Source: Gammaproteobacteria bacterium (GTDB lineage Bacteria; Pseudomonadota; Gammaproteobacteria; Pseudomonadales; JADFDG01). From it: a stretch of DNA of 32,952 bases. Position numbers and translations under genes: made by a program. The notes under the pieces were generated by a model. The model saw only the letters and a program-made list of their open reading frames with translations. It had not been told where the DNA came from and did not search any database. The DNA lies in assembly GCA_018262975.1 (NCBI GenBank), contig JADFDG010000022.1, positions 1-32,952 on the forward strand. Direction: 5' to 3'. Positions within the stretch are counted from its first letter, which is position 1, and every line of letters begins with the position of its first letter. Shown one piece after another: positions 1 through 9,299 of the stretch.

Positions 1-52
1 ACCGGGAAAGCAGACTTATCCACAGAAACCTGATTAGATCAGGCAACCCCAA

Positions 53-77
53 CCCGGGTCAGTTTTAGATGAGCACC
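53..77. repeat. Left half of a split IS21-type terminus (24-bp tandem unit)
   Basis: A unit beginning CCCGGGTCA and ending GATGAGC lies at 53-74. A second copy with the same ends lies at 1360-1381, just past the IS3 element. Removing the IS3 element and one copy of its 3-bp duplication places the two units in tandem with a 24-bp period. This resembles the multiple subterminal repeats of IS21-family ends. What lies left of base 1 is unknown, so assignment to IS21 is inference. Confidence 0.5.
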
Positions 78-156
78 TGGAGTGAACCCTTGGGGCTGGA
101 CCAGCAGGGCCTGCTGAACTGATACCCTCCGCCGGGCCTTCAACAGGAGAAGGTCC

Positions 157-519
157 ATGTCCACCCGTACCACCTACCGGCGCCACACCCACACTTTCAA
201 ATTGCAGGTCTGCAATGACATCCGCCAGGGCGCCATTGGCCGGCGCGAGGCTCAGAAGCACTATCGGCTGTCTGCCAACCTGATCCAGCACTGGCTGACC
301 CAGTACGATCAGGGCGAACTGGCTATCGAGGACGCCCAGGCCGAAACCATTGCCGAGTACGAGGCCAAGGTTGCCGCTCTGGAGCGCAAAGTCGGTCAAC
401 TGACCATGGAACTCGACTTGCTCAAAAAAACGCCACGGCCACCGGTCGCGACGAACAACGAGCAGTCATTGATTATCAGCGGCCCGTTGGTTGCTCCGTC
501 CGTCGGGGGTGCCAAATGA
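157..519 (+). CDS. IS3-family transposase OrfA (DNA-binding part)
   Basis: This 120-aa protein has an N-terminal helix-turn-helix of the IS3/HTH_Tnp_1 type, with the [18 protein letters not shown] region at about residues 30-47. A leucine-zipper-like stretch follows ([10 protein letters not shown], about 73-82). It recognises the element ends and dimerises. A run of seven A residues at 424-430 is a -1 slippage site: shifting there reads into the orfB frame without a stop and gives an OrfAB fusion of about 386 aa, the active transposase of this family. The OrfA stop (517-519) overlaps the ATG of orfB at 516. Confidence 0.93.
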
Positions 520-1316
520 TCGGCTTGCCGCGCAGCACACATTACTACCGGTCAACCGCCGCTTGCGTCGAGTTGGATGATGCCCGGCTCACCGGCTTGA
601 TCGGCGACATTCAGGATGAGTTTTCCGGGTACGGCTATCGGCGCGTGACCCTAGAGTTGGTGCGCCGCGGGTATCCTGTCAACCACAAGCGCGTGGCGCG
701 CGTCATGCGCCAGCAAGGGCTGGGGATCAAGCCACGCCGAAAGAGCCCCACAGTCCCTGTCGGTCCGGGTGAGCAGCCGGCGTTCCCGAACCTCTATGCA
801 AACATCATCCCCAATGAGGTCGATCGGGTCTGGGTGGCGGACATCACCTACATCCACATTCAAAGTGGCTTCTGCTACCTGGCTGCCATCCTTGACGCCT
901 GCAGCCGCAAGGTAATCGGCTATGCCATCTCCCGACGCATCGACACCCGCCTGACGCTTACCGCGCTACAGGCAGCGCTGGCGAGCCGGCAGCCGACACC
1001 GGGAACCTGCATTCATCACAGTGACCGTGGTTGCCAGTATGCGAGTAACCAGTATCGCGAGGCCATGGCCGCCGCAGGCCTGCTAGGGTCCATGAGTGCG
1101 CCGGGCAACCCCTACCACAACGCCCAGATGGAGAGCTTCATGAAGACGCTGAAGGTCGAGGAAGTCTATCTGGCCGGCTACGAAACGTTTGCCGACGTTG
1201 CCCGGCGTCTGCCCCGGTTCATTGATGACATTTACAATGCCAAGCGGATGCACTCGGCCCTTGGCTATGTGTCCCCAAACCAATTCGAAGCCCAGCACGC
1301 CCGGCAGGCGGCTTAG
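516..1316 (+). CDS. IS3-family transposase OrfB (DDE catalytic part)
   Basis: This 266-aa rve-type integrase domain carries the IS3 catalytic triad D109 (VADITYI), D170 (HHSDRGCQY) and E206 ([12 protein letters not shown]). There are 60 residues between the two aspartates and 35 between D170 and E206, the classic spacing. It cuts and joins the element ends. It is probably made mainly as an OrfA-OrfB fusion, because the -1 frame entered at the A7 run (424-430) joins this frame. The frame is undamaged from start to stop. Confidence 0.95.
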
Positions 1317-1359
1317 TTTTGCGAACCCTGCTGGTCCAGTCTCAGGGGTTCACTCCAAC

Positions 1360-1388
1360 CCCGGGTCAATATTGGATGAGCGTCAACA
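1360..1388. repeat. Right half of the split IS21-type terminus; truncates recombinase C
   Basis: This is the second copy of the CCCGGGTCA...GATGAGC unit (1360-1381), followed by CGTCAACA. Read on the minus strand the sequence starts TGTTGACGCTCATC. IS21-family ends start with TG, so an element boundary at about 1388-1390 fits. The minus-strand recombinase C frame runs through it and stops at 1366-1368, inside the repeat. The last about seven codons of C are therefore not native. Confidence 0.5.
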
Positions 1389-3123
1389 CATCAAGCCTAC
1401 TATCGCCCTTTACGCAAACCTGCTCACTGCAATTAAGGCAATCCATCGCCTTAAAGCAGGGCGCCATAACGAAATCATGAGTACAAAACCCGAACTCCGT
1501 AACATGGCCAGTCCGCCCCTCCCTCCCCAAAAACGAATCCTCCGAAAGAGGAATTTGCTTAGAAAGACGGTCAACCAAGGCCTGCACAGACTGGTCAATC
1601 TCAAGACTACTGTCACGCGCGCGAATCAGAGACGCCATATCCTCCGGACACACATGCTGATAGTGGGAGTTCTCGGAAATGTTCTTCCTACCTGACCACC
1701 AGGCGATCTCCTCCGCACTCAACATCCCGCGCAATGCCATCGTCGTTATCTGATGACGAAATTGACCGGCGCGAATCTTATGACGCTCCACATCACTATC
1801 TTCCGGAGGATGCCTAGCGAAAAACGGCGTGAAACCAGAGCCATCTGGAGACGAAGGTTCGCCCAGATCATTCGCAACCATTGCCGGGGAAACCCTTGAG
1901 ACCAAAACGGGGCTGGTAGTTCGGCCTGAATGCATCAGAAATCTCTGAATACAAAAGAGACCCTCGGAGTAACGGATACCGGCCGAACGATCAATCCACG
2001 GAAAATCTGCGGGCAGCCGTTTGTAGACGTAGTTGCCAAGCTCGGAAAGGGTCAACGTATACTCTTGCGTCGACAGCTTTGCATTGTAGAGCATTGCCCT
2101 TACATGCCTATCACTGCCCTCAGCCCACCCCATCGCTGCAGCAACTTGCTGATACGATAGTGGCTGATGATCTGTAACCTCCGGGCAACCTCGGTGTCGG
2201 TAGAATTTCCCGGGATTCTCTTCATGAAACTTCGCAATGCGGCGCGCCTCTTCCCCAAGCGCTCTCAACCTGGATACCGCCTCACGAATAATGGGGGCCA
2301 TCTCTGGCTGCACATGCTTAACTTTAGGGATCCCGTTCTTTTCAACATGAAAGCGCACGCCTAATGCGGGCCGACCATCCTGCAACTTATCCTCGACGAG
2401 ACATTCAACAGGAAGGTTCAGGACCTCACCGATCCGCACAGGCAATGGCAACATGATCGCGCACAATGACGTGGTAATGATGTCTCGGGGGTTCGTCGGG
2501 CAAGACGAAAACACCTGACCAATCTTCTTTACCAGCTCTGGATCAGGCAGGTTTTCCTTCTCTTTTTTCTTAGCCTCCAGGCTGACTCTTCCACGATCGC
2601 GGTCCGCCTTCAACGCAGACCTCCACACAAAGCTGCCCCTCACCAAGCACTTACTAACTAGAAACTCGTGTGCAATCTCCAGCTCTTTTCCAATCCCGTA
2701 CGCAGTCGTCTTTTTGTAGCGCCGCCGCACGACGTCCTGAGCGACATCCATGGTAGACTCATCCACTTGCCAGACCTGCCGCTCTTGATCGACCAGAGCC
2801 TGATGCAGACATTTAAGCATTGGGATGATTTTTGACGCAGTTTTTGTACCTCGCCTGAAGGACTTCTGATAGAAAACCCATGCTTTCGCATAGCTCATAT
2901 ATGGCTCTGGAAATGCATAGTCGGGATTGCCAATCCTTCCCTTCTGCCGAAGATCGCAGAAGTTCAGGCTGAAAGGCTTACCCCAGAAGTAGCTTTCCCA
3001 ATCTATGGAGCCATAGACGTAGGAGAACTCCCCCTGACAGTGCTCAATGAAAGCGCAAACAGCGGCCTTCGCCGTCGTTACATGAAGCGGCCTTTCATAC
3101 GGAATCGGCACTTCATCCCACAT
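1366..3123 (-). CDS. Tyrosine recombinase C of the trio, C-terminally truncated
   Basis: A site-specific DNA recombinase of the tyrosine (phage integrase) superfamily, about 585 aa. In numbering from the TTG at 3129, the visible catalytic signature is the box I arginine in LPVRIGEVLNL (R232), box II FRHQITT (R458-H459), and WWSGRKNISENSHYQH with the probable nucleophile Y490. A Cys-rich, zinc-binding-like segment follows, with cysteines at about 549, 557, 564, 567 and 572. I chose the ATG at 3123 (GGTGA lies 9 bases upstream). The TTG at 3129, overlapping the stop of gene B, is the alternative. The protein ends with foreign residues after about D580 because an IS21-like terminus cuts it, so it is probably a pseudogene or altered enzyme. 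It was translationally coupled to gene B. Confidence 0.82.
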   Translation of the reverse strand: MWDEVPIPYERPLHVTTAKAAVCAFIEHCQGEFSYVYGSIDWESYFWGKPFSLNFCDLRQKGRIGNPDYAFPEPYMSYAKAWVFYQKSFRRGTKTASKIIPMLKCLHQALVDQERQVWQVDESTMDVAQDVVRRRYKKTTAYGIGKELEIAHEFLVSKCLVRGSFVWRSALKADRDRGRVSLEAKKKEKENLPDPELVKKIGQVFSSCPTNPRDIITTSLCAIMLPLPVRIGEVLNLPVECLVEDKLQDGRPALGVRFHVEKNGIPKVKHVQPEMAPIIREAVSRLRALGEEARRIAKFHEENPGKFYRHRGCPEVTDHQPLSYQQVAAAMGWAEGSDRHVRAMLYNAKLSTQEYTLTLSELGNYVYKRLPADFPWIDRSAGIRYSEGLFCIQRFLMHSGRTTSPVLVSRVSPAMVANDLGEPSSPDGSGFTPFFARHPPEDSDVERHKIRAGQFRHQITTMALRGMLSAEEIAWWSGRKNISENSHYQHVCPEDMASLIRARDSSLEIDQSVQALVDRLSKQIPLSEDSFLGREGRTGHVTEFGFCTHDFVMAPCFKAMDCLNCSEQVCVKGDSRLDVLTLIQY

Positions 3124-3125
3124 AG

Positions 3126-4697
3126 TCAATCACCATCCGAACGAAGCCGCTTACGCTCATTGCAGATACGAATGACCTCAGTAACTGCAACTATCGTGCG
3201 GTCACGAATGCTGATAATTCGCATATCGCCCCCCGTCTTCTGCTTGAGTAACTCGCGCTCCACGAGCAGCTCCTCAAGAAGTTTGTCATGAGGGGCTTCG
3301 AGCCAAGGCTGAAACTGCGGGCATGTGTAGCAGGCATATGGAGGTCGCTCATAGCAGCCCCCCTCTTTGCTACAGCTGCCACAGCCCGTTTTAGGAGACA
3401 TGCGTACGATCGACTCAGGCTCGCCCGCCCGCTTAGCGGCGCCATGCCCATCAATGACTTCACCCTTGAAGGCCTGAACAAACTCGGACAGCTGATCTGC
3501 GATCGCGTACGTTATCCGATCAAAGTACGCAGGCACATTAGCCACGTACATCTTCAGGCTACTGGTCTTTTCATGATCTAGAATCTCGGAAACAACCATG
3601 GGAGGAAGGTTCTCCCTTACCGCCTCCGTGGCAACAGTCCTCCGAAATCGGACCGGGGTAGCCGACAGTCTCTTACCCGGAATGCGTGACGGAAGATCGG
3701 CATTCCAGACAAATTCCGCAACCACCGAAGCGAGCTCATTCGATTTCATGTGAAGGAGCTCATCTCCCTCGTATATTCGGAGCCGCCCATCGGGCGTCCT
3801 GGAATCCTCAACAAATTTGTCCCAGTCTATAAACAGTGGAAGATTCAATCTGACCTCTTTCGGAATATCCCCGAGATGAAGGACCGCCGTTTCGACCTCT
3901 TTCCGAGCGTGCTCACTAATCGCCGCCCAGAATTCCTTGTTGAGCTTGATTTCCTTCCTTTGCGCACGCCAACCGTCGCGCTGCTTGCGCCGCGGACAGT
4001 GCAGGATGTATTCGGTTTGGCCGAACTGGCTTTCTCGCTCCTCGAGATCTCCGATCTTCAAGTCGGCCAACTGAGACGGCCGCCGCCCCGTAAACATGAC
4101 CAAAAGACAGATGCTGAATACCATCAGGCTGATCGTCCCTTTCTCAAAGGAACCGAACAGCGCATCCATCACATCTGCGCGCTCAAACTCTGTGAGCGGA
4201 CCGTTTACCGGGCAAAGGGTTGCAGCAGCAAAGCCCTTTTCGTTAGGTCGAATAGACACGCTATCAATGTAGATAGCCGCATCCCTACTCACACCTAGAT
4301 ACTTCCGATCCAGGCAAACAGAGAGCATTGCTAACGGAAAGATCATGAAATAGTCTTGGTGCTCTTCAAGGCTCGCCCGATACGCCATTAGGTGGGAGGC
4401 ATTAACCTCTTCAATGCGATTGCCGTTCTTTTTCCAAAGCCACCTGAACATGGCCTTACTTCGCTCATTTACGTTGCAAGCAGTCTTCGGGGCTGCGCCA
4501 ACGGCATATTCTGCCAGCGCCCTTTTTGCTGAATCGGCGAGATTTCCGGCAATGTACTTATTGATCCAGTTGGTAATTACGGTTGCATCACGCGACAGGA
4601 CCCAAACGTCACTCGCGTAATCGAACTCATGCCCGTACCTGGAGCTGTACTTCTCGTTAGCCGCCCCAAAGGAGGACCGCAGGGATGTCACAGGCAA
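3126..4697 (-). CDS. Tyrosine recombinase B of the trio, start codon cut off by IS21
   Basis: A tyrosine recombinase of 523 aa from an in-frame TTG. It has the box I arginine in TGRRPSQLADLK (about R205), box II RFRRTVATEAV, in which the usual His is Arg (R350xxR353), and LDHEKTSSLKMY with H375 and the likely nucleophile Y384. The C-terminal Cys cluster (439, 442, 448, 456, 459) looks zinc-binding. The true ATG lies on the far side of the IS21 element at 7358-7360. Joining 7341-7360 to 4690-4707 restores MKNSVSFEVE before this frame, for a native protein of about 533 aa. As it stands the gene lacks its start codon and its coupling to gene A, so expression is doubtful. Confidence 0.83.
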   Translation of the reverse strand: MPVTSLRSSFGAANEKYSSRYGHEFDYASDVWVLSRDATVITNWINKYIAGNLADSAKRALAEYAVGAAPKTACNVNERSKAMFRWLWKKNGNRIEEVNASHLMAYRASLEEHQDYFMIFPLAMLSVCLDRKYLGVSRDAAIYIDSVSIRPNEKGFAAATLCPVNGPLTEFERADVMDALFGSFEKGTISLMVFSICLLVMFTGRRPSQLADLKIGDLEERESQFGQTEYILHCPRRKQRDGWRAQRKEIKLNKEFWAAISEHARKEVETAVLHLGDIPKEVRLNLPLFIDWDKFVEDSRTPDGRLRIYEGDELLHMKSNELASVVAEFVWNADLPSRIPGKRLSATPVRFRRTVATEAVRENLPPMVVSEILDHEKTSSLKMYVANVPAYFDRITYAIADQLSEFVQAFKGEVIDGHGAAKRAGEPESIVRMSPKTGCGSCSKEGGCYERPPYACYTCPQFQPWLEAPHDKLLEELLVERELLKQKTGGDMRIISIRDRTIVAVTEVIRICNERKRLRSDGD

Positions 4698-4707
4698 TTC
4701 AACTTCG

Positions 4708-4712
4708 AACGA
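4708..4712. repeat. IS21 target-site duplication, left copy (AACGA)
   Basis: The 5-bp direct repeat AACGA at 4708-4712 recurs at 7341-7345 and flanks the element ends exactly. Removing the element and one copy restores an open reading frame, which independently confirms the boundaries. Confidence 0.93.
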
Positions 4713-4760
4713 TGCGTATTTCGCTGATCGTGACCGGCCGTTTCGGTTGATCGTGACCGG
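4713..4760. repeat. IS21 terminal repeats, istB-side end
   Basis: Two direct copies of a TTTCG-N4-ATCGTGACCGG-type unit start at 4719 and 4741, with a 22-bp period. The outermost copy begins with the terminal TG. Such multiple terminal repeats are the IstA binding sites in this family. Confidence 0.8.
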
Positions 4761-4804
4761 TGGCTGATGGGTCGTTGTGCGCCGTGGTCAGTGTAAAGGG
4801 TCGG

Positions 4805-5560
4805 TCACGATGGTTCTTCTGTTTTCACCTTTTCCGGTTGTTTTCTGCGCAGTGATTCGCCCTTGAGGGCAATGCGGTGCGACCGGTGCACGAGCCGGTC
4901 GAGGATGGCATCGGCCACCGTGGGATCGTTCAGCCAGGCATGCCAGTGGTCGATGGGCAGCTGGCTGGTGATGATGGTCGAGCGCGCGGTGCGGTCGTCG
5001 ATCACTTCCAGCAGGTCGTGCCGGCCGGCCTGGTCCAGCGGGGTCATGCCCCAGTCGTCGAGCAGCAACACGTCGGTACGGGCCAACTGGCCGAGCAGTT
5101 TCCCGAAGCTGCCGTCGGCATGCGCCATGCGCAGGGCTTCCGCCAGGCGCGGGACGCGCAGATACAGCACCGAGAACCCCTGTCGGCAAGCGTGCTGGCC
5201 CAGCGCACAAGCCAGCCAGGTTTTCCCCGCGCCGGTGGCGCCGGTCAGCAACACGCTTTGACCCTGGCGGATCCAGTCGCCGCCCGCCAGGCCAGCCAGC
5301 ACACGCTTGTCCAGTCCGCGACCGGGGCCGGTGTGCACATCCTCCAGACACGCATCGGCGTATTTCAGTTTGGCCTGTCGCAGCAAGCGCTCGAGCCGGC
5401 GCGAGTCGCGCCAACTGCGCTCGCGATCGACCAGCAAGCCGAAGCGATCCTCGAACGCCAACTCGTGGCAGGCCGGCAGCGCGCGTTGTTCTTCCAGCGC
5501 ACGCGCCATGCCGTCGAGCTTGAGCTCGCGCAGGTGATCCAGAGTGGTCTGGTGCAACAT
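4805..5560 (-). CDS. istB: IS21-family ATPase helper protein IstB
   Basis: This 251-aa AAA+ ATPase is related to the DnaC/DnaA group. Walker A is GATGAGKT at residues 107-114 and Walker B is VLLLDD at 164-169. IstB is the target-selection and transposase-stimulating partner of IstA. It starts at an ATG at 5558-5560, preceded by a strong AAGGAG ribosome site and 10 bases after the istA stop, so the two genes form one operon. Its length is normal for the family and no damage is seen. Confidence 0.96.
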
Positions 5561-5570
5561 GTCATCTCCT

Positions 5571-7139
5571 TCAGTGGGTGGTGGTGGTCGGTGGGGTCAG
5601 GTAGTAATCAGGGCCACGCAGGTTGTCGTGCTCGGGGCTGACCCAGTCGGCCTGCGCGGTGGCCGGTAACGGCTGGCGGTCCAGCCCGTTCTGCAGGATC
5701 GACAGCACCGAGCGGCGGGTCTTGGTGCCAATGGCCAACGCCCGGGCGCAAGCCGCCTCCAGGCGCGCGTGGCCGTACTGCCGCTCCAACGACAGCAGGC
5801 CCAGGCAACTGCGGTAACCCATCTCGGGGTGTGGCCGGTTGGCCAGCAGGTGCTCGACCAGCGCGTGCGTCGCCGGCCCGATGTCGCATGCCCAGCGCAG
5901 GAAGCGGCCCGGCGTCCATTCCAGATGCGCCCGATGCGCCGCCGGCATGTGCTCTGCCACCGTGCTGTGCCGTCCCTTGCTGAACGAGCGCACATGGCTG
6001 GCCACGCGCCGCCCGCCGTGCAGGATTTCCACAGTCGTGTCGGTGCTGCGCGCCTCGACCTCGCGGCGCACCAGCGCGTGCGGCACGCTGTAGTAGTGCC
6101 CGTCGACCTCGACGTGATAGTCGATGTTGACCCGGCAGACCGTGAACCGCGCGATCTCGTACGGTTGCTCCGGCAGCGGGCGCAACGCCGGCCGGTCGAT
6201 CGACGCGAACCAGGACTGGCGACTTCCCGCCAGCTTCTTGAACGGCTTCGCGTTTAGCTCGACCAGCAACTCGGCAATCGCCTGGTTGAGCGCGGCCAGC
6301 GTAAAGAAGCGCTGATGGCGCAAGCGCGCCAGGATCCAGCGCTCGACCAGTTGCACACCGGCTTCGACCTTGGCCTTGTCCTGCGGCTTGCGCGGCCGCG
6401 CCGGCAGGATCGCCGTGCCGTAGTGCTCGGCAAAGGCCTGCGTTGCGCGGTTCAGCTCCGGCTCGTAGCGATCAGGGTGCCTGATCAGGGCGCGCGGGTT
6501 GTCCGGCACCACCAGCGCCGGAACACCACCGTAAAACGCCAAGGCCTGGCCCAGGCCGCGCAGCCAGTCGGCCTGCGTCTCACCGGCCGTGGCACAGGCA
6601 TAGGTGTAGTTGGAGGCCCCCAGCACCGCCACAAAGATGTGTGCCGGGCGGATCTCGCCGGTGTCCGCGTTGACGATGTCGACCGTCGGGCCGGCGTAGT
6701 CGATGAACAACTTCTCGCCCGCCCGGTGCACCTGCCGCATCGAGCGCCGCAGCGTCCCGGCATAGGCGTGGTAGTGCGCACAGAACTGGGTGTACTGGTA
6801 AATCGGCGCCGACGCCGCCTGAGCGTATTCCTGCCAGAGCAACTGCAGGGTCACGCCCTTGCGGCGCAACTCCCGATGCACCCACGGCAGGTCGATGGCC
6901 GCACGTTCGCCCCGGGTCGCCGGTGGTTCAGGGCAAAGTCGCCGTACCAGCTCGGCCTCGTCCAGCACCGCCAGCGACGCCCCGTCCAGCCCGGCGATCC
7001 GGGCCCGCGCCACGTATTTGCTGACCACGCCCTTGGACAGGCCCAAGGCCTGGCCAATGCGCTCATGCGACAGGTCGCAGTCGAACTTGAGGCGGAGAAC
7101 TTCCTTGATGTTGCGCATGGGCACCCGCGGTGTCGGCAT
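5571..7139 (-). CDS. istA: IS21-family transposase IstA
   Basis: This 522-aa DDE transposase has an N-terminal helix-turn-helix ([19 protein letters not shown], about 24-42). The retroviral-integrase core carries D147 (LFIDYAGPT), D213 (VVPDNPRA) and E259 ([11 protein letters not shown]), followed by the C-terminal Mu-type region. It binds the terminal repeats and performs strand transfer with IstB. A long N-terminal stretch before the catalytic core is normal for IstA. Full length, with no frameshift. Confidence 0.96.
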
Positions 7140-7248
7140 CTCTCCCCCAAAAAGGGGCGAGGATGGCGACCGGTGAAGTCATGCACAACGAACCCGTCAG
7201 GACCGTTTCGGTAAGCCGTGACCGGGATTTCGGAGAGGCCCTGAAATC

Positions 7249-7340
7249 GGTCACGATCAACCGAAACGGCGGTCACGCCTTACCGAAATGGCCGGTCACA
7301 CCTTAGCGAAATGACCGGTCACGATGGGCCGAAATACGCA
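7249..7340. repeat. IS21 terminal repeat array, istA-side end
   Basis: GGTCAC recurs at 7249, 7271, 7294 and 7317, and CGAAA at 7262, 7284, 7307 and 7330. This gives about four tandem 22-23-bp units in opposite orientation to the two at the other end. The array probably contains both the IstA binding sites and the istA promoter region (7140-7248 shows no other gene). Confidence 0.8.
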
Positions 7341-7345
7341 AACGA
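7341..7345. repeat. IS21 target-site duplication, right copy (AACGA)
   Basis: Matches AACGA at 4708-4712 and directly follows the terminal CA of the element. Confidence 0.93.
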
Positions 7346-7360
7346 CACTGAATTCTTCAT
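7346..7360 (-). pseudogene. Detached 5' end of recombinase B (start codon and first codons)
   Basis: On the minus strand ATGAAGAATTCAGTG begins at 7360. Its ATG shares bases with the TGA stop of recombinase A (7357-7359), an ATGA overlap. Continuing across the removed IS21 element stays in frame with the rest of gene B at 4707 and below. This is the original translation start of B, now 2.6 kb from the gene body. Confidence 0.85.
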
Positions 7361-8667
7361 TTTTCTGACCCAAGCCGACCAGCTTCATCTCGACTGAAAT
7401 GAAGAGCCCGACCTTTAAGAAGATCAGCTTGCATAGAAAGGAATGCTTCGCCGGCTTTCCGGATCACGTGGCGCCGGCTGTACCTCGCACCCTGTTCTGA
7501 TCCGTCAGCCCACCCGAAGATCTCATTCCTCAGTCTGGCCTCTTCCTCTGGAGAGACTCCCAGCCGGTCCATGGCCTCGGAGAAACGGTCATTTGCCGTG
7601 TACCGCCAGATGTGCGGCGAGTGGATCTTTTTGTACTCCGGGTATTTCTCATTGAAGTCGCCCAGAATATCTCTCAGCCCGGTCGCACTTATTGGCTGCC
7701 CGGCATAGCGCCCTTTTCGTTGCGAAACCACCAGGAATCCGTGTTTTCTTTTGGCGGCAACGCGGTGACGGTCAGTCATTACATATTCCCTCACGAGGCT
7801 ATTAAGATCCTCGCTAATCGGGAGCATTCTGGCCTTGGTTTTTGCGACTGGCTGCCTGACTCTGTCATCTTCCACATCGTCAGGGCGACGATGCACCGTC
7901 ATCGTACAACTCTGCAGATTGAAGTCAGTAGCCTTCAGTGCAAGCAGTTCGCTCAACCTAATTCCGGTTTCCAGGAGACGGAACACCAGATAGTTTCTGA
8001 GTCGAAGGTAGCGTGGATACGGATTGTCTTCAGAGTCAGGATGAACAATCCCAATGATTCGGTCGTGATCCTGCTTCGTCAGACCCAACCGTGTCGCACT
8101 GCGGTGAACCTTTGTGTTCTTGGGTATTCCCGCCTTGAGCGAGTCCAGCATGATTCGCACGGACTCTCGGCGAAGATTTTCGGGGATCGGAGACGCGCCG
8201 CGGCATTGATAGTTTGCCAGCCATTCCAAGTATTTCAGGGTGTACCGAATTCTCACCTCGCGAGTTTCAAGAGAAACACCTTGAGCGGGCTTTCTCAGGT
8301 TGGCGCGCGCCCCTTCGAGGGACTTTTTTTTCCGTCGTATTGGAACGACGTTAGTTGGCGCTGGTTCTTTAGAAGAACTCCCCAGCCGCCTGACCAAGTC
8401 TTCGACCTCCCAGCGCTCGAGAAACTGCCCCCTGGCAAACCTCTCGTGCAAATGAATCGCATTGCGATCAGCCCATTCATAGAGGATTCCTATGGTCCCG
8501 GAGACCTTTAGGAGGGTGTTGGCTGCGCAGCCGGGGTTTCGGTACTGGCTTGTGAGGAATAGACAGGCTTGGGGTACGGGCAGGCCAACAGGACCTACCA
8601 GGAGAACGGCGCGCTCCCCCGATGACCGCTTGATCAAAACCGTCCTGTAGGGGGGCCTGCTAGGCAT
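7357..8667 (-). CDS. Tyrosine recombinase A of the trio, apparently intact
   Basis: A site-specific recombinase of 436 aa. It has an N-terminal SAM-like/core-binding region, then the complete catalytic set: R237 (LETGIRLSELLAL), a Lys at 276-278 (AKTKARMLPI), H352xxR355 (HIWRYTAND), W386 (FGWADG) and the nucleophile Y396 (GARYSRRH). I chose ATG 8667 (MPSRPPYRTV) because the upstream reading frame crosses a hairpin and looks non-coding. There is no clear Shine-Dalgarno. The stop TGA originally overlapped the ATG of gene B. The gene is co-oriented with ssb and follows a hairpin by about 20 bases, so its promoter must lie upstream of, or within, 8718-8807. Confidence 0.87.
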   Translation of the reverse strand: MPSRPPYRTVLIKRSSGERAVLLVGPVGLPVPQACLFLTSQYRNPGCAANTLLKVSGTIGILYEWADRNAIHLHERFARGQFLERWEVEDLVRRLGSSSKEPAPTNVVPIRRKKKSLEGARANLRKPAQGVSLETREVRIRYTLKYLEWLANYQCRGASPIPENLRRESVRIMLDSLKAGIPKNTKVHRSATRLGLTKQDHDRIIGIVHPDSEDNPYPRYLRLRNYLVFRLLETGIRLSELLALKATDFNLQSCTMTVHRRPDDVEDDRVRQPVAKTKARMLPISEDLNSLVREYVMTDRHRVAAKRKHGFLVVSQRKGRYAGQPISATGLRDILGDFNEKYPEYKKIHSPHIWRYTANDRFSEAMDRLGVSPEEEARLRNEIFGWADGSEQGARYSRRHVIRKAGEAFLSMQADLLKGRALHFSRDEAGRLGSEK

Positions 8668-8681
8668 TGGGATCGAATTGC

Positions 8682-8717
8682 AACAAAAAGGCCTGGTGCG
8701 CAAGTACGCACCAGGCC
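8682..8717 (-). terminator. Hairpin plus T-run behind ssb / before recombinase A
   Basis: On the minus strand AAGGCCTGGTGCG, a 6-base loop, then CGCACCAGGCCTT form a perfect 13-bp stem followed by TTTTTG. It is a good intrinsic terminator for ssb, whose stop is 90 bases upstream. It also sits only about 20 bases before the recombinase A start codon, so it could instead act as an attenuator of the recombinase operon. The 8718-8807 stretch between ssb and the hairpin is A/T-rich and holds no gene. Confidence 0.8.
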
Positions 8718-8807
8718 TTGATGGCAACACAACACCAACTATGTCAGAAAATACTGCTAAAACAGTAGGTTATATGCCAATCGTAACATTTGGCTCGTTG
8801 GTGTGGG

Positions 8808-9299
8808 CTAGAACGGGATGTCATCATCGAAATCAGCGGCCGGCGCCGGCTGGGCGGCCGCCGGTTTGCGGGCTGCAGGCGCTGCGGCGGGAGCCGGCTG
8901 GTCGAAGCCGTGGTCGAAGCCATGGTCAGCCGCATCCATGCCACCGCCACCGCCGCCACCACCGCGCGAATCCAGCATCTGCATCTCGCTGGCCACGATC
9001 TCGGTGGTGTAGTGCTTCTGGCCGTCCTTGTCGTAGGAGCGGGTGCGCAGCGAGCCCTCGATGTACACCTTCATGCCCTTCTTCAGGTACTCGCCGGCAA
9101 TTTCCGCCAGTCGATTGAAGAAGACCACCTTGTGCCACTCGGTGCGCTCCTGGTTCTGCCCGGACTGCTTGTCCTTCCAGCTTTCACTGGTGGCCACGGT
9201 GATGTTGGTCACGGCACCGCCACTGGGCAGGTAGCGCGTTTCCGGGGCACGCCCGAGGTTGCCGACCAGGATGACCTTGTTGATTCCCTTGCTTGCCAT
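8808..9299 (-). CDS. ssb: Single-stranded DNA-binding protein
   Basis: A 163-aa tetrameric SSB. The OB fold occupies about residues 1-110 ([46 protein letters not shown]). A flexible Gly-rich linker with eight consecutive glycines, an imperfect DHGFDHGFD repeat and an Ala/Pro-rich stretch follow. The acidic tip DDDIPF recruits replication and repair partners. The start has a clear AAGGAG ribosome site. It lies 94 bases behind yajR in the same direction. The uvrA-MFS-ssb neighbourhood is common in gammaproteobacteria. Confidence 0.97.

Follow-up and report, generated by a model that had tools for sequence, protein, structure and literature searches.

The 32,952-bp stretch of DNA described here (the window) is the entire contig JADFDG010000022.1 (C14 in our numbering) of a Gammaproteobacteria bacterium with a 3.31-Mb genome in 29 contigs. 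It carries three consecutive recombinase genes downstream of ssb, which appear to be ginA, ginB, and ginC of the mobile islands known as GInts, an identification that is largely established by our comparisons. Very probably, a GInt has inserted at the 3′ end of ssb and the locus is its left end, with ginB hit by an insertion sequence (IS) of the IS21 family, ginC cut by another IS, and ginD gone or unassembled. Homology, gene order, the ssb position, both insertions, and the continuity of the ginB frame can be read directly from the DNA, and our verdict is that the window holds what looks like a decayed and divergent GInt, a remnant rather than a complete island.

PMC5385486 describes GInts as islands that move as a circle and whose ginABCD operon codes for a small protein alongside three tyrosine recombinases, with all four genes being essential for excision and integration; several of the GInts described there are located at the end of ssb, where attL overlaps the end of the gene. 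An earlier note on the window had pointed out the three-recombinase operon, a puzzle that now becomes a named element.

A ginABC operon behind ssb

The genes that carry this identification all lie on the minus strand:

8808..9299, minus strand: ssb, the insertion-site gene (PF00436, E 2e-38)
7357..8667, minus strand: gene A, ginA, tyrosine recombinase of 436 aa from ATG 8667 (PF00589, E 8.2e-9)
7346..7360, minus strand: first five codons of ginB, with the ATG over the TGA of gene A (frame arithmetic)
3126..4712, minus strand: remainder of ginB, tyrosine recombinase, including one AACGA copy at 4708-4712 (NF041502, E 1.8e-122; PF00589, E 2.4e-6)
1389..3129, minus strand: gene C, a ginC fragment of ca. 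580 of ca. 680 residues (tblastn to the ginC of relatives)

Gene B is interrupted, and gene C runs downward from TTG 3129 or ATG 3123. Among Pfam and NCBIfam models, there are family matches for GinA and GinB but none for GinC, nor for the ginC of a related locus (L018) searched against the same models. We examined 51 related loci, 49 from a scan of a genome collection and two from further genomes; 46 of them contain A, B, and C, always in this order. In L048 and L062, where the contig starts within B, gene A was not found; gene C was not found in L025, L043, and L063. The rows are partly dependent: L015 and L033 match with identical statistics and are seemingly one genome, as are L016 and L055. 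L030 is almost identical to L032, as is L039 to L041, and L052-L060 are mutually close. The position relative to ssb is likewise shared, since ssb lies directly upstream in 32 of the 39 assessable relatives (the 49 scan loci minus two without A and eight with too little upstream sequence) and a common box follows its stop codon. In the window, 140 nucleotides (nt) separate the ssb stop (8808) from the ginA ATG. A terminator-like hairpin (8719-8688) lies between an alternative ginA start, GTG 8730, and ATG 8667, which makes the latter the better candidate.

The relatives also point to the fourth gene. Behind ginC, 41 of the 46 loci with a readable ginC end carry a ginD-like open reading frame (ORF) of 132-160 aa, as judged by eye (the others being L020, L037, L046, L048, and L065), and 13 of these proteins align with 17 invariant columns. 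A profile built from these 13 rows found nothing in the window's own genome at E values up to 1. As controls, the same profile matched two other genomes: G252, which did not contribute to it (E 6.1e-33), and G210, which seems to be the genome of the contributing locus L033. For three ginD proteins, the Pfam and NCBIfam matches were all weak and not close to any curated cut-off.

Some of these loci are worth recording in their own right. In Tepidimonas fonticaldi, the near-identical ginABC copies L030 and L032 lie on the same contig, ca. 21.7 kb apart, the former behind ssb and the latter not, which resembles a tandem island pair. The gin operons of L016 and L052-L060 are very similar despite coming from Neisseria dentiae, a Moraxella, and several genera of Pasteurellaceae, which suggests recent transfer between distant hosts; the ginB start looks broken in L058-L060. 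In L020, a single open frame of ca. 585 codons takes in both the ginB region and what is left of ginC, as if a deletion had joined the two.

An IS21-family element inside ginB

The interruption of ginB consists of the following parts:

4713..7340, minus strand: IS21-family insertion sequence, IS1162 group by its best-covered plasmid matches (NCBIfam IS21 and IstB models, ends, AACGA repeats)
5571..7139, minus strand: istA transposase (NF033546, E 1.5e-87)
4805..5560, minus strand: istB helper ATPase (NF038214, E 6.6e-75)
4708..4712: left copy of the AACGA target duplication
7341..7345: right copy of the AACGA target duplication

The models for istA (a DDE transposase) and istB (an ATPase) exceed their curated NCBIfam cut-offs. 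Matching terminal inverted repeats delimit the element at 4713-7340, with TGCGTATTTCG pointing inward at each end, and AACGA stands at both flanks; a match of five bases at fixed places has a chance of ca. 1 in 1000. IS21-family elements duplicate 4-8 bp of their target. The best-covered plasmid matches are IS1162-family copies with 73.7% nt identity over 60% of the element, and part of it is matched at 90-95% by 4 of 79 plasmid records; a further copy was not found elsewhere in the genome. The istA/istB pair, TG...CA ends, repeated end motifs, and a 5-bp target duplication are all as in the IS1162 group, from which the element differs in nothing except sequence divergence. The claim that an IS21 element sits at codon 7 of gene B is borne out at ca. 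codon 6-7.

Joining the flanks at one AACGA copy indeed gives an uninterrupted B frame, as the earlier note had proposed. The insert and one AACGA amount to 2633 bp; once they are removed, ATG 7360-7358 is in the B frame, ten codons upstream of TTG 4697. The reconstructed ginB has 533 aa, and its ATG overlaps the gene A TGA (7359-7357) as ATGA; the proposed sizes of 436 aa for A and 533 aa for B are both correct. This supports the view that the IS21 element is a later insertion into what was formerly one tightly packed unit of A, B, and C.

How far such packing extends can be judged from the relatives. The 49 loci with A and B yield 47 scored A/B junctions, L021 (a script artifact) and L065 (broken) being left unscored. 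The nearest in-frame ATG or GTG of B lies at -8 relative to the end of the A stop in 13 loci, at -14 in 11, at -4 in 7, at -11 in 3, at -1, +4, and +8 in 2 each, and at 0 and +7 in 1 each, with none found in 5. Offsets of -14 to -1 thus occur in 36 of 47 relatives, compared to 344 of 2484 control positions (out-of-frame stops within B genes). The 4-nt ATGA/GTGA overlap itself is seen in 7 of 47 (L030 and L032, near-identical copies, among them) vs. 129 of 2484. At the B/C junction, 27 of 48 loci share an offset of -8. Among twelve further loci with both genes from the order-level search, many of them very distant, a start of the B frame (with TTG counted) lies at -4 in 3, -8 in 4, -1 in 1, +2 in 1, and +11 in 2, with none within 20 nt in L076. 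The A/B and B/C packing is general in the family, and the exact A/B offset drifts. Proportional synthesis of the recombinases may consequently matter for the reaction, and the packed starts presumably meant translational coupling of the gin genes. For the proposed translationally coupled unit, the packing itself is found again in the A/B offsets of relatives, and coupling is what the overlap would suggest. An overlap of B and C in the window exists only if TTG 3129 is the start of C; with ATG 3123, a 2-nt gap separates them.

Junction and expression of the interrupted ginB

A different A-B junction in IS-free relatives had been named in advance as evidence against the reconstruction. While 7 of 47 relatives have the same overlap, 35 have another offset and 5 have no start in reach; these 40 differing loci share only about a third of their residues with the window and are too distant to decide the exact junction. 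The prevalence of other offsets (-8 in 13 of 47, -14 in 11 of 47) could be taken to mean that the window's junction, too, had differed before the insertion, e.g., through a deletion accompanying IS21. We regard this as most improbable given that the 5-bp repeats are perfect, that frame continuity is exact, and that, of the three lineages closest in GinB, L018 and L023 share the ATGA overlap of the window, with the third (L020) having an ATG at -8.

A rival idea is that IS21 altered the expression of ginB rather than killing the gene, with a shortened GinB still being made from TTG 4697 or GTG 4691, the only ATG/GTG/TTG starts remaining at the head of the B frame. From TTG 4697 onward, 523 codons of this frame are free of stops, as are 30 codons upstream that reach into IS21, and the ca. 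10 lost residues precede the region that aligns with relatives in most tblastn matches. However, a search across 4500-8900 found no promoter-like site, and a clear ribosome site before TTG 4697 was not seen by eye. Residual GinB production therefore seems rather unlikely, and whether or not ginB is expressed, ginC is truncated and ginD was not found.

A second insertion truncates ginC

The downstream part of the operon is cut by a second IS21-family element, here called IS-X, which itself is split by a third insertion:

1361..1388: terminus of IS-X, cutting ginC (the same end is uninterrupted on contigs C11, C22, and C6)
78..1357, plus strand: IS3-family element nested in IS-X (NF033516, E 1.1e-79; uninterrupted site on C11, C22, and C6)
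1..77: remaining IS-X end up to the contig edge (comparison with C11, where an istB-like ORF precedes it)

The IS3-family element is bounded by the 3-bp repeats ACC at 75-77 and 1358-1360. On C11, window positions 1-77 and 1358-1388 are contiguous with three bases shared, and positions 29-77 and 1358-1389 are likewise contiguous on C22 and C6. The family of IS-X was judged by eye from the istB-like ORF ahead of its end on C11. It is a multi-copy element found at the ends of several contigs of the assembly (C6, C11, and C22), and the copy in the window is the one split by IS3.

Gene C ends where it does because the IS-X terminus sits at position 1388. The open ginC frame has 587 codons, not the 640 aa that had been proposed, and its final codons are inside the insertion sequence. 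The ginC of relatives extends ca. 100 aa past the fragment in the window, with lengths (estimated from aligned parts) of 666-690 aa in 37 of the 38 rows kept and 476 in the remaining one. When run against the window's own genome, a profile of the ginC end found only the fragment in the window and one weak match (E 0.05), which falls in an open frame of 819 codons. Consequently, the earlier idea that removing IS21 restores the operon fails, because ginC itself is truncated by ca. 100 aa by IS-X, the fourth gene was not found, and the operon of this family comprises four genes.

In an intact relative, the operon would yield four proteins that excise the island and insert it at the end of ssb. 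In the window's lineage, an IS21-family element entered ginB at codon 6-7, making the 5-bp duplication and probably decoupling ginB. A second IS21-family element removed the end of ginC and was itself split later by the IS3-family element, and ginD has been lost or is absent from the assembly. From the loss of ginD and the missing ginC end, the island is presumably immobile: with a recombination machinery broken at at least two places and one gene short, it should be fixed in its host. This outlines one route by which such islands may die, i.e., through serial transposon insertion into the recombination operon.

A conserved box and hairpin at the ssb end

Two further features occupy the interval between ssb and ginA:

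8784..8804, minus strand: conserved box AC[CT]-N8-16-GT[TA]A right after the ssb stop, likely the left end of the island
8688..8719, minus strand: hairpin resembling an intrinsic terminator

Both were scored in 33 rows, i.e., the 32 ssb-linked island loci (close relatives among them) and the window. The box is present near the ssb stop in 23 of 33 rows with ca. 0.5 expected from letter shuffles, though the pattern was picked after inspecting the rows. A terminator-like hairpin within 140 nt after the ssb stop is likewise found in 23 of 33 rows, again with ca. 0.5 expected from shuffles. In most of the relatives inserted at ssb, the two features occupy roughly the position that they have in the window, which retains both despite its decay. 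We tentatively raise the possibility that GInts at ssb carry in their own left end this box together with a putative replacement terminator, which would stop transcription coming from ssb and shield the gin operon from it. If true, this would help explain why many unrelated GInts sit harmlessly behind ssb. The words terminator, hairpin, and stem-loop are absent from the main texts of PMC5385486 and PMC10214605.

Divergence of the window and points against the assignment

No close IS-free orthologue was found across taxon-level, genome-collection, plasmid, and viral-contig searches, collections that may omit near relatives. At the family level, only the genome of the window was recovered; B matched in 4 of 369 genomes of the class and in 23 of 390 of the order (own genome included in both cases), with the best other order-level match at 33%. 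The best segments among the 49 loci of the genome-collection scan reached at most 42%, plasmid records were all below 60% (ca. 30-34% among the matches listed), and viral contigs gave no match. In a maximum-likelihood tree of GinB, the window is placed beside L018, L020, and L023 with moderate support (86/75).

For the protein alignments, L015, L016, L032, and L041 were excluded because they duplicate other rows, and further rows were dropped if they were poorly covered, stopped early, or ran off the end; of 47 candidates, 40 relatives remained for A, 40 for B, and 38 for C. GinA (numbered from GTG 8730) keeps R258, H373, R376, and Y417 in an R / H-x-x-R / Y pattern, with Y at position 377 vs. 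H in 40/40 relatives. GinB retains R206, R350, R352, H375, and Y384. GinC (window 1366-3129) retains R458 and Y490, with G at position 455 in the H-x-x-R motif region vs. H in all 38 rows kept. In our reading, these retained and changed columns would belong to the catalytic set. GinB also has R and I at positions 338-339 vs. E and R in 40/40. Across near-invariant columns, the window ranks first in departures in B (15/57) and C (6/44) and third in A (3/37). The departures in B may stem from lineage divergence or relaxed constraint. We do not read departures of this kind with confidence as a sign of decay, since the window row is the most diverged and its frames are stop-free. Defense-system models matched none of A, B, and C.

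Several observations weigh against assigning the locus to GInts. The assignment goes by the GInt definition of PMC5385486 and by our related loci, and no relative is close, the best segments being 42% and the best whole alignments 33-35% identical. The GinB branch of the window is very long (2.85), the protein departs at 15 of 57 near-invariant columns, and the ginD profile found nothing in G279, where B itself matches weakly. Seven of the 39 assessable relatives are located away from ssb (L032, L033, L038, L040, L042, L045, and L050). The far end of the island lies outside our view because the contig ends, at an IS copy. No attR, in GInts an imperfect direct repeat at the far end, was found: the sole exact copy of the ssb end is ssb itself, and a search with the final 15 bases of ssb, allowing two mismatches, gave no copy farther downstream in the 32 ssb-linked relatives (flanks of up to 10 kb). 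An 18-base pattern of the ssb end with up to three mismatches matched ssb and one place with three mismatches in the own genome, and a control also gave one match.

Comparison with known systems

Among known elements with several recombinases, RIT elements (Recombinase In Trio) are one alternative for an operon such as this one, with three consecutive, overlapping recombinase genes and no fourth; PMC3414803 gives overlaps of 4-8 bp and describes three genes in ca. 3.5 kb. The window's trio would instead occupy ca. 5 kb (436 + 533 + ca. 680 aa), ginC is followed by a ginD-like gene in 41 of 46 relatives (in the window, this end of the operon is cut), and 32 of 39 relatives lie at ssb, so that a RIT element is very unlikely. 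Strand-biased circularizing integrative elements (SE) share a packed four-gene operon with tyrosine recombinases, but their genes are intA-tfp-intB-srap, and their proteins are described as a group separate from GInts. For SE, PMC10214605 suggests coupling from overlaps and reports that complementation of intA and intB failed. We set both RIT and SE aside by gene order and neighbors, working from descriptions and not by sequence.

The name Tn6571-family transposon has been applied under GInt kinship in PMC10121019; our literature search found no paper joining Tn6571, three integrases, ssb, and an island. Compared to GInts, the window differs in that its ginB holds IS21, its ginC lacks ca. 100 residues, its ginD was not found, and over whole proteins it is only about one-third identical to any of the copies recovered. 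What it shares with them is a packed operon of three tyrosine-recombinase-like genes that lies at an island end, next to the 3′ end of ssb, and the relatives of its trio bear ginD behind ginC.

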